Assembly (NCBI RefSeq): GCF_006516965.1
Contig: NZ_VHLH01000026.1
Span: 1-64,000 of the forward strand
Reading direction: 5' to 3'
From: Pararhizobium mangrovi
Lineage (GTDB): Bacteria > Pseudomonadota > Alphaproteobacteria > Rhizobiales > Rhizobiaceae
Length of the DNA stretch: 64,000 nucleotides
Shown here: positions 2,011 to 44,283 of the stretch, in pieces
Layout of the letters: each line of letters starts with the position of its first letter
Numbering within the stretch: position 1 is the first letter of the stretch
The notes under the pieces: model-generated
The model's input: only the letters and a program-made list of their open reading frames with translations
Database searches by the model: none
What the model was told of the DNA's origin: nothing
Position numbers and translations under genes: made by a program

Positions 2011-2745
2011 TTGCCGATCTTCAACTATCGACGTGTTCCCTATGCGGAGATTCGCGCCTTTTCCGTGCACATCCTGACGGCTTCCGGCGCCTTCTTCGCC
2101 TTTCTGGCGCTGGTGGCCGCGGGGGACGGGCATTTCGGCGCCATGTTCTGGTGGCTGGGTGCGGCGTTGCTCGTCGACGGCGTCGACGGGCCAATCGCTC
2201 GCAAGCTCGACGTCAAGTCGGTCCTGCCGACATGGTCCGGCGTAATGCTGGACAACGTCATCGACTACGTGACCTACGTGCTGATCCCGGCCTACGGCTT
2301 TTACGAAAGCGGCATGCTCGGCAACACGTGGTCGTTCGTCGCCGCCGGCCTGATCGTCATGTCGAGCGCCATCTATTACGCCGACACCGGCATGAAGACC
2401 GAGGAGAACTTCTTCTCCGGCTTTCCCGTCGCCTGGAACATGGTCGTCTTCACCTTCTTCGTCGTCGATCCGACGCCGGCGGTCGCGTGGATCACCATCC
2501 TGCTTTCCGTGGTCTTCACCTTTCTCAACGTGTTTTTTCTCCACCCGGTGCGCGTCGAACGCCTGCGGCCGCTCAATCTCGGCGTCTTCGCACTGTGGTC
2601 GGTCCTCAGCGTCTTCGCGCTGTTTCTCAATTTCGACAGTCCGCGCTGGCTCGTCTGGGCGGTCGTCGCGGCGGGTGCCTATCTCTACTTCATCGGCCCC
2701 GTGCTGCAGTTTTTCCCGAACCTCGGCCGGCGCGGTTCCGCATAA
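2011..2745 (+). CDS. pcs: phosphatidylcholine synthase (CDP-diacylglycerol-choline O-phosphatidyltransferase)
   Basis: Pcs condenses choline directly with CDP-diacylglycerol to make phosphatidylcholine in the inner membrane, a pathway typical of rhizobia and brucellae. The CDP-alcohol phosphotransferase signature is visible as DGPIAR, then G, D and D in WSGVMLDNVIDYVTY, followed by about six hydrophobic segments. The protein opens PIFNYRRVPYAEIRAFSVH, as I recall for rhizobial Pcs. The chosen TTG at 2011 follows a G-rich GGGGACGGGGG ribosome site and gives 244 residues, the usual length. An ATG at 1963 would add 16 residues without known homology. Confidence 0.9.
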   Translation: MPIFNYRRVPYAEIRAFSVHILTASGAFFAFLALVAAGDGHFGAMFWWLGAALLVDGVDGPIARKLDVKSVLPTWSGVMLDNVIDYVTYVLIPAYGFYESGMLGNTWSFVAAGLIVMSSAIYYADTGMKTEENFFSGFPVAWNMVVFTFFVVDPTPAVAWITILLSVVFTFLNVFFLHPVRVERLRPLNLGVFALWSVLSVFALFLNFDSPRWLVWAVVAAGAYLYFIGPVLQFFPNLGRRGSA

Positions 2746-2844
2746 GCTGGCCGATCCGGCCGTTGCAGGATTAGCGTGGGGATTGAGAGTGCTCACATCT
2801 TGATCATTTGGGAAAACTGCGGAATGTAAGGGCAGGCAAGGGTC

Positions 2845-4464
2845 GTGACGCACGATCCAACGTCGCACGGCCGCAGCACGGGAGATTTCGTGGCGTCCAG
2901 CTCTTCCACCGGCGATGCGGCCCTTCTATCGACCGAGGGGCTGACCAAGTCTTTCGGTTCGTTCAAGGCATGCGACGGGATCGACCTCTCGATCGCCGGC
3001 GGCGAGATCCATGCCCTGCTGGGCGAGAACGGCGCCGGAAAGTCGACGCTGGTCAAGATGCTCTTCGGCGTCCTCGAGCCGAGCGCAGGCGCGATCCGCT
3101 GGCGCGGCGATCCGGTCGCGATCCGTTCGCCGGCTGCCGCGCGCCGAACCGGCATCGGCATGGTCTTCCAGCATTTTTCCCTTTTCGAGGCGCTGACCGT
3201 CGCCGAAAACATCGCCCTTTCGCTCGACGATGCGGTTCCGATCGAACGCATTGCCAAGGAGGCGGCGCGCCTGTCGCGCGAATACGGCCTGCCGCTCGAC
3301 CCGAACGCGCACGTCGCGGACCTTTCCGTCGGCGAGCGCCAGCGCATCGAGATCGTGCGCACGCTTCTGCAGAAGCCGGAACTGATCATCCTCGACGAGC
3401 CAACCTCCGTGCTGACGCCGCAGGAGGCCGATCGGCTCTTCGAGACGCTCGAGCAGTTGCGTGGGGAGGGCCGGGCGATCCTCTATATCAGCCATCGCCT
3501 CGAAGAGGTGCGCCGCATCTGCGACCGTGCGACGGTGCTTCGCCACGGCAAGGTAACGGGCGCCTGCGACCCGCGACGTGAAACGGTCGGCTCGCTCGCC
3601 GGCATGATGGTCGGCGGCGAAGTGGAAGGGATCGCCGACAGCGGCCTTTCGCCCGGGGAGGCGGTGCTTGTCGAAACTCGCGCGCTTTCCGTGCCTGCTC
3701 AAACACCCTTCTCGATCTCCCTCGAAGACGTCACGCTCGCCGTTCGAAGCGGGGAAATCCTCGCGATCGCTGGCGTTGCCGGCAACGGCCAGAGCGAACT
3801 CTTCGACGTGCTTTCCGGCGAGACGCTGGTTGCGGACGCTGCCGCGGTGCGCATCGACGGGCGGGACGCAGGCCGGCTCTCCATTTCGGCGCGCCGTCTG
3901 CTCGGCGCCGGCTTCGTCCCGGAGGAGCGCAACGGTCACGGTGCCGTCGGCAGTCTCGCCCTTTCGCAGAACGTCATGCTCTCGCGACATGCCAGTGATT
4001 CGCGTGCCTATCTCGCCGGCGGCCCCGTCCGCATGCTGAAAGAAGGCTCGGTGCGCGAGACGGCGCGGCGCATCGTCGCCGCGATGGACGTGCGCAAGTC
4101 CGGGGAGGATCCGCAGGCCTCGTCGCTTTCGGGCGGCAATCTACAGAAGTTCATCGTCGGGCGGGAACTCGACCGCAAGCCGCGCGTGCTCGTCGTCAAC
4201 CAGCCGACCTGGGGCGTCGATGCAGGCGCCGCCGCACGCATTCGCCAGGCGCTGATCGAACGGGCGCGGGAAGGGGCCGCGGTGCTCGTCATCAGCCAGG
4301 ATCTGGACGAGATCTTCGAGATTGCAACGCGCATCGCCGTCATCAGCGGCGGCAGGCTCTCGAAGGCCGAACCGTCGGCGACGATGACCCGTGAGCGCAT
4401 CGGCCGCCTCATGGGGGGCATTCAGGGCGTCGACGAGGGGACGGAGCTTGCCGATGCGTCTTGA
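2845..4464 (+). CDS. BMP-family ABC importer, duplicated ATP-binding subunit
   Basis: This 539-residue ATPase carries two nucleotide-binding domains, as in RbsA and NupO/YufO-type importers. The first has Walker A GENGAGKST at residues 60-68, LSVGERQR as signature and LIILDEPTSVL as Walker B. The second has a degenerate P-loop (GVAGNGQSE), SGGNLQKF and VLVVNQPTWGVD. It energises uptake through the two permeases encoded next. The GTG at 2845 is the longest start; a GTG at 2890 after GGGAGA is also possible. It overlaps the next gene by 11 bases. Confidence 0.88.
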   Translation: MTHDPTSHGRSTGDFVASSSSTGDAALLSTEGLTKSFGSFKACDGIDLSIAGGEIHALLGENGAGKSTLVKMLFGVLEPSAGAIRWRGDPVAIRSPAAARRTGIGMVFQHFSLFEALTVAENIALSLDDAVPIERIAKEAARLSREYGLPLDPNAHVADLSVGERQRIEIVRTLLQKPELIILDEPTSVLTPQEADRLFETLEQLRGEGRAILYISHRLEEVRRICDRATVLRHGKVTGACDPRRETVGSLAGMMVGGEVEGIADSGLSPGEAVLVETRALSVPAQTPFSISLEDVTLAVRSGEILAIAGVAGNGQSELFDVLSGETLVADAAAVRIDGRDAGRLSISARRLLGAGFVPEERNGHGAVGSLALSQNVMLSRHASDSRAYLAGGPVRMLKEGSVRETARRIVAAMDVRKSGEDPQASSLSGGNLQKFIVGRELDRKPRVLVVNQPTWGVDAGAAARIRQALIERAREGAAVLVISQDLDEIFEIATRIAVISGGRLSKAEPSATMTRERIGRLMGGIQGVDEGTELADAS

Positions 4465-41217: not shown

Positions 41218-42738
<1,521 letters not shown>

Positions 42739-42758: not shown

Positions 42759-42901
42759 CGTCATCCTCGGGCTTGACCCGAGGATCTGACGACCAGGAGG
42801 CGTGCCGGCCGGAAGGCAAACGGCGGCGGCATAACGGACACCCGCTACGCCAGTCGCACCGAGATGGGGGTTGGATCCTCGGGTCAAGCCCGAGGATGAC
42901 G
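42759..42901. repeat. palindromic repeat element, copy 1 (28-bp inverted ends)
   Basis: The ends (42759-42786 and 42874-42901) are perfect 28-base inverted repeats, separated by 87 bases. Each arm also folds on itself: CCTCGGGCTTGACCCGAGG is a seven-pair stem with a five-base loop. The arms read CGTCATCCTCGGG outward and GATCC inward. Translated, the element gives peptides such as SGLTRGSD and GWILGSSPRMT, which I recall as common spurious ORFs in Rhizobiales. It lies 20 bases after sufB. Confidence 0.9.
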
Positions 42902-42917
42902 TTCGAGGGGTAAGGGG

Positions 42918-43259
42918 TTGAGTGGCTACGTCTACATGATGTCGGACAAGCCACGTGGCGTCATCTACACCGGCGTTAGCAGTGACATCCACGGGCGTGT
43001 TTGGGACCACGGGAACGCGGTACAGAAAGGTTTCACATCGGCGTACAAAGCCAAGAACCTCGTCTGGCTCGAGCGCCATCCGAACATCGTTCTGGCGATC
43101 CAACGCGAGAAATCTTTGAAGCGATATCGGCGGGACTGGAAGATAACGTTGATCGAGAAGTTGAACCCGAGCTGGCTGGATCTCTACGAACGGATCGACG
43201 AGATCGACAATCCGTACCAACCGCACGCAAACACGCAGATGGTAGACGACTACGAATGA
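42918..43259 (+). CDS. GIY-YIG nuclease family protein
   Basis: The 113-residue protein is one GIY-YIG domain: YVYMMSDKPRGVIYTGVSSDIHGRVWDH, with the conserved arginine in the last block, then LVWLERHPNIVLAIQREKSLKRYRRDWKITLIEKLNPSWLDLY with the conserved glutamate. The second motif reads YTG, not YIG. The TTG start follows GAGGGG by seven bases. It may cut DNA. Its position between two copies of a palindromic repeat suggests that the repeat ends are its substrate, which is inference. Confidence 0.8.
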   Translation: MSGYVYMMSDKPRGVIYTGVSSDIHGRVWDHGNAVQKGFTSAYKAKNLVWLERHPNIVLAIQREKSLKRYRRDWKITLIEKLNPSWLDLYERIDEIDNPYQPHANTQMVDDYE

Positions 43260-43281
43260 GCGACTGCACCCACCACTCTAT

Positions 43282-43423
43282 CGTCATCCTCGGGCTTGAC
43301 CCGAGGATCTAACGACATGGTGGCGTGCTGGCTGGAACGCTGACCGCAGCGGCATACTGGACACCTGCTACGCCGGTCGTACCGAAATGGGGTTGGATCC
43401 TCGGGTCAAGCCCGAGAATGACG
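43282..43423. repeat. palindromic repeat element, copy 2
   Basis: This copy has the same orientation as copy 1. Its 28-base arms (43282-43309 and 43396-43423) are inverted with one mismatch (GAGAATG in the right arm). The 86-base centre is related to copy 1 (shared GGCGTGC, GGCATA and GCTACGCC blocks) but has diverged more than the arms, which suggests selection or conversion on the arms. Confidence 0.9.
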
Positions 43424-43524: not shown

Positions 43525-44283
43525 ATGCTGGAAATCAAGAACCTGCACGCGCGCATTGCCGAGGATGGCACCGAGATCCTGCGCGGGCTCAATCTTTCGA
43601 TTGCAGCCGGCGAGGTGGCCGCGATCATGGGGCCGAACGGCTCGGGCAAGTCGACGCTCTCCTACGTGCTCGCCGGCCGCGAGGACTACGAGGTGACGGA
43701 AGGCGAGGTCTGGTACAAGGGCGAGAACATCCTCGAACTCGATCCGGCCGAACGCGCCGCAAAGGGGCTCTTCCTCGCTTTCCAGTACCCGGTCGAGATC
43801 CCGGGCGTGGCGACGATGCAGTTCCTGAAGACCGCGCTCAACGAGCAGAAGAAGGCGCGTGGCGAGGCGGAACTGACGACGCCGGAGTTCATGCGGCAGG
43901 TCAAGCAGGCCGCCGGCGAACTGAAGATCAACCCGGACATGTTGAAACGGCCGCTGAACGTCGGCTTTTCGGGCGGCGAGAAGAAGCGCGCCGAGATCCT
44001 GCAGATGGCACTGCTCGCACCGCAACTCTGCCTTCTGGACGAGACGGATTCCGGTCTCGACATCGACGCGCTGAAGATCGTCGCCGACGGCGTGAACGCG
44101 CTGCGTTCGCCGGAGCGCGCCATGGTCGTCATCACGCACTACCAGCGCTTGCTCGACTACATCGTGCCGGACACGGTGCACGTGCTCTATCGCGGCCAGG
44201 TCGTGCAGACGGGTGACAAGGATCTCGCGCGCGAGCTCGAGCGGAACGGCTATGCCGATCTGATCGAGCAGCACGCGGCGTAA
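43525..44283 (+). CDS. sufC: Fe-S cluster assembly ATPase SufC
   Basis: The 252-residue ABC-type ATPase has Walker A GPNGSGKST at 36-44, the SufC-typical FSGGEKKRAEILQMALL and LCLLDETDSGLDIDALK. It drives the SufB-SufC-SufD scaffold. The ATG at 43525 follows AGGGAAAG; the in-frame extension upstream reads through the repeat and is not real. Confidence 0.96.
   Translation: MLEIKNLHARIAEDGTEILRGLNLSIAAGEVAAIMGPNGSGKSTLSYVLAGREDYEVTEGEVWYKGENILELDPAERAAKGLFLAFQYPVEIPGVATMQFLKTALNEQKKARGEAELTTPEFMRQVKQAAGELKINPDMLKRPLNVGFSGGEKKRAEILQMALLAPQLCLLDETDSGLDIDALKIVADGVNALRSPERAMVVITHYQRLLDYIVPDTVHVLYRGQVVQTGDKDLARELERNGYADLIEQHAA

Follow-up and report, generated by a model that had tools for sequence, protein, structure and literature searches.

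Within the window, i.e., the whole stretch of 64,000 nucleotides of Pararhizobium mangrovi DNA that we analyzed, two palindromic elements in direct orientation lie on either side of a gene for a 113-residue GIY-YIG nuclease, and all three are placed between two suf genes, the first of which we take to be sufB. The features of this locus are listed below.

41218 to 42738, + strand: sufB (flank); an open reading frame with orthologs found by tblastn, annotated sufB in the Azospirillum lipoferum locus L149
42759 to 42901, no strand: copy 1 of the CGTC dimer, 143 bp; two inverted 23-nt hairpins with CGTC/GACG outermost; fold z -8.5 and -9.6
42763 to 42785, - strand: left hairpin of copy 1, ATCCTCGGG(loop 5)CCCGAGGAT; CGTC tag at 42759 to 42762
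42875 to 42897, + strand: right hairpin of copy 1; GACG tag at 42898 to 42901
42918 to 43259, + strand: GIY-YIG nuclease, 113 aa, TTG start; PF01541 E 4.9e-10; AlphaFold2 pLDDT 84; Foldseek UPF0213 E 7e-4, Slx1 E 0.02
43282 to 43423, no strand: copy 2 of the CGTC dimer, 142 bp; fold z -9.9 and -9.8
43286 to 43308, - strand: left hairpin of copy 2; CGTC tag at 43282 to 43285
43397 to 43419, + strand: right hairpin of copy 2, one stem mismatch; GACG tag at 43420 to 43423
about 43525 to 44283, + strand: sufC (flank); a frame inside an open reading frame, orthologs found by tblastn, annotated sufC in L149

These coordinates, together with the match to PF01541, confirmed the arrangement described in the first-pass annotation, in which direct copies of 142 to 143 bp with 28-bp inverted ends flank the nuclease gene between sufB and sufC. 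The left ends of the two copies match at 85% across 111 nt and the right ends at 93% across 40 nt, and the 28-bp inverted ends are perfect in copy 1 and carry one mismatch in copy 2. Each end of each element is a 23-nt hairpin with a 9-bp stem (ATCCTCGGG, a 5-nt loop, CCCGAGGAT) and with CGTC lying outside it; allowing up to three mismatches, the window contains four such hairpins, compared to none in 100 shuffles. In all four, the CGTC tag is unpaired at one end; the right arms end in CCA, which is the tail of the CGTC-REP consensus, and the left arms end in CTG or CTA. Folded as single-stranded DNA (DNA parameters), both elements pair from end to end, with z-scores of -8.5 to -9.9 over both strands.

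A small GIY-YIG nuclease

In Pfam, the open reading frame at 42918 to 43259 matches only PF01541 GIY-YIG, at 40 bits against a cut-off of 22.6, and the only other PF01541 match in the genome (E <= 0.001) is inside a 736-aa open frame that is taken to be uvrC. Searches of NCBIfam and Rfam gave no informative match. The AlphaFold2 model (pLDDT 84, pTM 0.77) consists of one short domain, and its matches among solved structures are UPF0213 (E 7e-4), Slx1 (E 0.02), a structure whose title describes action on branched DNA, and, weakly, UvrC (E 0.7). The sequence profile also places UPF0213 proteins nearest (1zg2, E 6e-7; 1ywl), and BLASTP of the nuclease against E. coli YhbQ returned no alignment. 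In GIY-YIG enzymes, Tyr, Arg and Glu have catalytic roles. Y6, Y17, R27, H31 and E64 are invariant across the 37 rows of our alignment A3 (the window protein and 36 of the 80 loci of the wider set described below, with rows containing in-frame stops excluded and others omitted by choice), which is consistent with a predicted active site that is intact.

Our survey of the 247 genomes of the window's family found a match to this nuclease in 125, of which 107 carry one or two copies. Among all genomes examined, up to seven copies occur in one genome. Phage records yielded just two remote matches, both from one phage.

The nuclease gene between sufB and sufC

Of 222 nuclease loci, 17 have the gene between sufB and sufC, 16 of them from the family of the window and the other from A. 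lipoferum 4B, and the copy at this position is therefore an old resident. It is also constrained, patchily present, and repeatedly lost or regained. For example, at the readable sufB-sufC sites of 25 genomes, picked partly for having a genus mate with the nuclease (G235 was dropped, since its sufB match is broken), the gene is present in 10 and absent from 15, with both states occurring within 8 genera, and G008 retains just a single hairpin. Among ten close relatives of the nuclease, nine of them at suf, dN/dS is 0.045 to 0.162 in 21 of 45 pairs, with the other 24 pairs saturated. A recent origin of the possible mobile unit that the first-pass annotation placed within the suf operon is rejected on the basis of both the 17 loci, Azospirillum included, and these dN/dS values. 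The accompanying assumption that sufB and sufC are normally near neighbors stood only in part: the gap in relatives without the nuclease is as short as 20 bp in some, but reaches up to 855 bp. Between members of the same genus, the sequence separating sufB from sufC has diverged so far that it could not be aligned by eye, and a target duplication could not be read from it.

At the A. lipoferum 4B locus (L149, plasmid AZO_p3, 2986 to 3279), the nuclease between sufB and sufC is accompanied by another palindrome (ATCCCCGCGAAGGCGGGGAT), in another order. The gap between these two genes may attract insertions, or may be a position favored by selection.

Abundance of the repeat

A search of the 3.9-Mb genome with the window arm identified 30 matches at up to two mismatches, compared to 0 for a reversed control, and 26 of the 30 lie away from the nuclease gene. 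We extracted ten full dimers of 134 to 173 bp from this genome, including the two in the window, and several of their interiors are similar by eye. The repeat is thus moderately, not hugely, abundant in its own genome, and the expectation that it would be abundant genome-wide is borne out to that extent only. Across the family, 134 of the 247 genomes contain at least one arm at no more than one mismatch. The nuclease is found in 36 of the 45 genomes with at least 10 arms and in 89 of the 202 others (Fisher p 1.2e-5, phylogeny uncontrolled). The other nine of these 45 arm-rich genomes, in which no nuclease was matched, could contain relics, or repeats that are able to persist or move without the nuclease.

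The loop is CTTGA in the two dimers beside the nuclease and of the CTCGA type in 7 of the 8 others extracted (L005 to L023), and two dimer sub-families may thus coexist in this genome. In another genome (G142:C22:122325-123090), four arms with a regular spacing of approximately 247 bp immediately precede a nuclease gene, which suggests a tandem array.

Many nuclease genes are bracketed by like hairpins

We analyzed two sets of nuclease genes. The family set contains 90 genes from the 247 genomes, i.e., the 30 loci initially returned and the next 60 by rank, and the wider set contains 80 named loci out of at least 588 confirmed stretches in a collection of 84,980 species. Two genes are present in both sets (L059 is L260, and L085 is L252), and all are bracketed. 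We kept only loci with 350 bp of flank on each side, which removed 5 of 90 in the family set, 5 of 80 in the wider set and 1 of 40 later paralogs. Our strict test requires, within 350 bp on each side of the gene, a hairpin whose stem is perfect over 8 bp or more and whose loop is 3 to 8 nt, with the pair alike at no more than four mismatches; our tag test requires [C/T]GTC directly ahead of a perfect 8-bp stem on both sides.

The strict test was passed by 46 of 85 genes in the family set and 44 of 75 in the wider set (88 of 158 distinct genes), compared to 3 of 302 and 5 of 338 control open reading frames of at least 80 aa from the same loci (8 of 640 together), and by 0 of 1270 random pseudo-genes placed in the family loci. 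The tag test was passed by 45 of 85 genes in the family set, 45 of 75 in the wider set and 20 of 39 later paralogs, with 2 of 302, 9 of 338 and 4 of 79 control open reading frames passing in the respective loci. Requiring a 9-bp stem of the tagged hairpins, which misses families of 8-bp hairpins, gave 62 of 85 and 22 of 75. The enrichment of repeats beside GIY-YIG genes that the first-pass annotation had asked for is therefore present, and the pairing that it had likened to REP/RAYT, with a GIY-YIG enzyme in place of the RAYT, is strongly supported as an association, and is wider than was proposed. Among genes of the wider set, the closest tag faces outward in 40 of 50 upstream cases and 40 of 53 downstream, so that the gene usually lies within a pair with the tags outermost; the corresponding count for the family set is only 31 of 55 per side. 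Loci with one hairpin per side in inverted orientation include, for example, L028, L034 to L036 and L056.

The strict test was failed by 39 of 85 genes in the family set and 31 of 75 in the wider set (70 of 158 distinct genes), some of these with imperfect hairpins and others without any. Genes of a second GIY-YIG type, YhbQ, were examined in E. coli and in 12 of 49 plasmid records, and 0 of 13 are bracketed by either test. Of 12 plasmid records with the nuclease subfamily, three of which are Sphingobium loci closely related to one another, 9 pass by like hairpins and 8 pass the tag test. Both GIY-YIG types are encoded in Aeromonas caviae KAM479, and only the gene of the nuclease subfamily is bracketed; Photobacterium sp. 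GJ3 also encodes both, with neither bracketed.

Outside the Pseudomonadota, going by contig titles, the strict test was passed in Deltaproteobacteria (3 of 4), Nitrospirae, Omnitrophota, Uhrbacteria, Moraniibacteriota and LCP-89, passes for which mis-binning is possible, since these contigs are mostly metagenome bins. Contigs titled Myxococcota, Berkelbacteria, Scalindua and one Anaerolineae failed it, and one further Anaerolineae and one Dehalococcoidia contig have too little flank for the test. Bracketed nucleases were also identified in A. lipoferum 4B, S. meliloti Ak57 and one N. gonorrhoeae record. This last record (NZ_CP119140.1) contains 231 tagged dRS3-type sites at no more than one mismatch (control 0) and one nuclease match. 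Our script found no tagged hairpin in a 50-kb stretch of S. meliloti pSymB.

Several individual loci have further features. The N. gonorrhoeae gene (L150, approximately 2500 to 3700) lies within a dense cluster of dRS3-type repeats. In seven loci (L061, L062, L089, L096, L106, L107 and L115), outer REP-type hairpins and inner GC-rich hairpins (e.g., GCGCCGCGTCTGCGGCGC) are present on both sides of the gene, and the inner hairpins of these composite brackets resemble the structured spacers of larger mosaic elements. On Planktothrix agardhii plasmid p1 (L153, 2989 to 3273), a related nuclease gene that has no palindromes beside it is located between an MmeI-type restriction gene and the DISARM gene drmA.

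Hairpin type follows nuclease lineage

Different nucleases are found with different hairpins. We compared nuclease distance to stem distance in 156 of the 222 loci, i.e., those in which tagged hairpins (at no more than one mismatch) flank both sides of a stop-free frame of 70 residues or more, leaving out L252, L260, L155 and L157 as duplicates or near-duplicates. The two distances covary (Mantel Spearman rho 0.369), with a maximum of 0.084 among permutations and 0 of 500 reaching the observed value. Part of this covariation is the shared descent of the loci. We also examined genomes in which paralogs have different hairpins, taking for each paralog the closest nuclease from another genome and asking if the hairpin of this relative is nearer to that of the paralog in question or to that of the other paralog. 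In these contrasts, which are mutually non-independent, the hairpin followed the nuclease lineage in 28, with 1 tie and 1 against; at a protein distance above 0.15, the counts are 19 for, 1 tie and 1 against.

Dispersed units and site polymorphism

Units with defined ends are dispersed within a genome and between sister species. In genome G427, three units (L303, L304 and L305) that are 87 to 91% identical occupy separate places, and L319 and L322 are units of the same kind in sister species. Comparing L303 to L319, which is at another site in another species, the stretch in common is exactly CTTCGTC..GACGAAG, with the unit ends at the tags. Comparing L303 to L305 of the same genome, the similarity extends 17 bp and 47 bp past these limits, and comparing L303 to L304 it extends more than 140 bp further upstream; since these two have flanking sequence in common beyond the tags, one may be a segmental duplicate. 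The nuclease copies in G427 have a dN of 0.02 to 0.06 and a dS of 0.15 to 0.48. In congeneric species (29 loci, 2 of them incomplete), the L305 site contains dimers of other hairpins, single hairpins, unrelated inserts or short gaps, with the gaps being 34 to 60 bp in L343, L344, L347 and L351. The site is thus a mosaic, with several unrelated inserts in sister species. The single hairpins in L339 and L352 have a CGTC tag on both sides, and might be candidate excision scars.

A second site, identified in genome G119 and compared to 15 of the 38 other genomes in the genus, shows both states cleanly. The nuclease is present in G119, G765 and G763; the site is empty, with the flanks 0 to 5 bp apart, in G777, G778, G779, G766, G786 and G016; and G761 contains hairpins without a nuclease gene. 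A gap of 24 to 43 bp is present in G784, G783 and G791, and an unrelated insert of approximately 610 bp in G776, G785 and G793. The core that G119 and G763 have in common is CGTC..GACG to within 2 bp (84%), and the whole insertion in G119 exceeds this core. The earlier suggestion to compare filled and empty orthologous sites thus found polymorphism both here and, with flanks that cannot be aligned, within the 8 genera at sufB-sufC. No target-site duplication is evident by eye at L303 to L305 or at the G119 site, and no cleavage, live event or proven excision product was seen.

Interpretation

Taken with the bracketing and its dependence on nuclease lineage, we consider it likely that this small GIY-YIG subfamily is the cis-linked partner of CGTC-tagged REP palindromes, in a selfish system that resembles REP/RAYT and uses an unrelated enzyme. 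In such a system, the autonomous unit would be a CGTC-hairpin, the nuclease gene and a hairpin-GACG, with gene-less CGTC dimers, such as the 142-bp elements of the window, as the non-autonomous form. The nuclease would recognize the tagged hairpin of its own lineage and would nick or cut at the hairpin or tag, in the donor, the target or both, with host repair or replication then copying the repeat into the cut. From sequence comparison, we infer that the nuclease may move the repeats, by a route that would be closer to homing than to classical transposition. We favor a homing-like route since GIY-YIG enzymes are, to our knowledge, not known to join DNA strands; since the gene is often located among its own hairpins; and since one orthologous site has hairpins both with and without the gene. 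Against this reading stand the 70 genes that fail the strict test, the nine arm-rich genomes with no nuclease match, the lack of a target-site duplication or proven excision product at the sites read, the G119 insertion that exceeds its core, the flank in common between two of the G427 units, the diverged DNA at sufB-sufC, and the point that GIY-YIG enzymes by themselves are not known to transpose DNA.

The main rival, which we regard as unlikely, is a domesticated host nuclease that trims or cuts CGTC hairpins or cruciforms during replication, repair or repeat control, with the adjoining hairpins being its target or regulatory sites, and with no spreading. Purifying selection and the common sufB-sufC position across many genera fit a host function, as do the best folds, UPF0213 (E 7e-4) and Slx1 (E 0.02; titled for branched DNA), and the one or two copies in 107 of 125 family genomes with a match. 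This explanation does not account for near-identical units dispersed in one genome, for patchy presence within 8 genera at suf and also at the G119 site, or for one genome with up to seven copies. RAYTs are likewise kept vertically, and constraint is therefore compatible with mobilization.

Less probable again is that the nuclease gene is a passenger, landing or persisting in repeat-rich intergenic hot spots while another enzyme moves the repeats. The mosaic of unrelated inserts at the L305 site in sister species, and the arm-rich genomes without a nuclease match, are what would be expected of a passenger, but control genes from the same loci are seldom bracketed, YhbQ-type genes are unbracketed (0 of 13), and within genomes the hairpin type tracks the nuclease lineage. 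The outward tags of the wider set (40 of 50 and 40 of 53) also argue against a passenger, although they number 31 of 55 per side in the family set.

We consider it very improbable that the hairpins act at the RNA level, as terminators, mRNA stabilizers or autoregulatory sites spread by ordinary duplication. The strong folding, calculated with DNA parameters, would suit such a role, and roles of REPs in transcription termination and mRNA stabilization are hypothesized in the available part of a 2013 survey (PMC3733652), but 26 of the 30 arms in the own genome lie away from the nuclease, the stem has a specific tag outside it, and the dispersed units retain both of their ends. Chance, or an artefact of a repeat-rich genome, can be dismissed despite repeats being common in some genomes of the family, since every control (shuffles, pseudo-genes, control open reading frames and YhbQ-type genes) is against it.

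Returning to the nuclease as partner of the palindromes, a broader proposal is that CGTC hairpin-ended units driven by a GIY-YIG domain of approximately 90 residues are a new class of prokaryotic mobile element, with CGTC REPs, including dRS3, as non-autonomous offspring; here we consider the chances to be evenly balanced.

Comparison with known systems

REP-like palindromes are widespread bacterial repeats that form two superfamilies, one of which has a known partner, the RAYT. The other, the CGTC-tagged superfamily, includes dRS3 of Neisseria and RPE-4 and RPE-6 of Rickettsia (Di Nocera, De Gregorio and Rocco 2013, PMC3733652). As described in the available part of that survey, which covers A. 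lipoferum, S. meliloti and Neisseria, CGTC REPs have a CGTC (or TGTC/CCTC) tag, a stem of 8 to 9 bp that starts with AT, a loop of 4 to 5 nt and a short tail with the consensus CCA, occur mostly as inverted dimers, and are apparently without a dedicated transposase, with a few fortuitous associations with transposase genes. The repeats in the window match this description in their CGTC tag, 9-bp stem starting with AT, 5-nt loop and inverted dimers, and differ in that they bracket a GIY-YIG nuclease gene, where the same part of the survey gives no dedicated enzyme. In the available text of PMC12306157 and PMC6006769, CGTC occurs only where the 2013 work is cited. No link between GIY-YIG enzymes and REP-type repeats appears in the titles or abstract openings of the open-access matches listed, and one may be in print elsewhere (subscription journals, preprints). 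The window is thus one instance of a widespread nuclease-repeat pairing, in a class that was reported earlier without a partner enzyme (PMC3733652, available part). Given a tiny and specific candidate partner, how CGTC repeats, dRS3 among them, arose and spread becomes directly testable.

Several other systems have features in common with these units. Like an insertion sequence, they have inverted terminal hairpins around an enzyme gene and dispersed copies with defined ends; insertion sequences use DDE, HuH, serine or tyrosine transposase chemistry, whereas only a GIY-YIG enzyme was found here. RIME and NIME, the rhizobial and neisserial intergenic mosaic elements, are also composite and intergenic with palindromic ends, and we know of no enzyme assigned to either. 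UPF0213/YhbQ proteins provide the nearest solved structures by both profile and fold (1zg2, 1ywl), but differ in the lack of a BLASTP alignment with E. coli YhbQ and in the unbracketed state of all 13 YhbQ-type genes. Homing endonucleases of the I-TevI type have the GIY-YIG fold and sites that are polymorphic for the nuclease gene, whereas here the gene is free-standing between hairpin repeats, with no intron or intein and, in the model, a single short domain. The Penelope-like retroelements of eukaryotes are likewise mobile elements with a GIY-YIG endonuclease, but in them this domain is part of a fusion with a reverse transcriptase, whereas here it stands alone.

The closest parallel is the GTAG REP/REPIN with its RAYT (TnpA-REP), in which palindromes also form inverted pairs, the enzyme gene is also flanked by its own palindromes, and few enzymes are likewise found with many repeats. 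The RAYT is an IS200-like tyrosine (HuH) transposase with a GTAG tag, in contrast to the GIY-YIG enzyme and CGTC tag here. If mobilization is true, GIY-YIG nucleases would be one more group of enzymes behind the transposon-like elements of bacteria, and the pairing would be the GIY-YIG counterpart of REP/RAYT.
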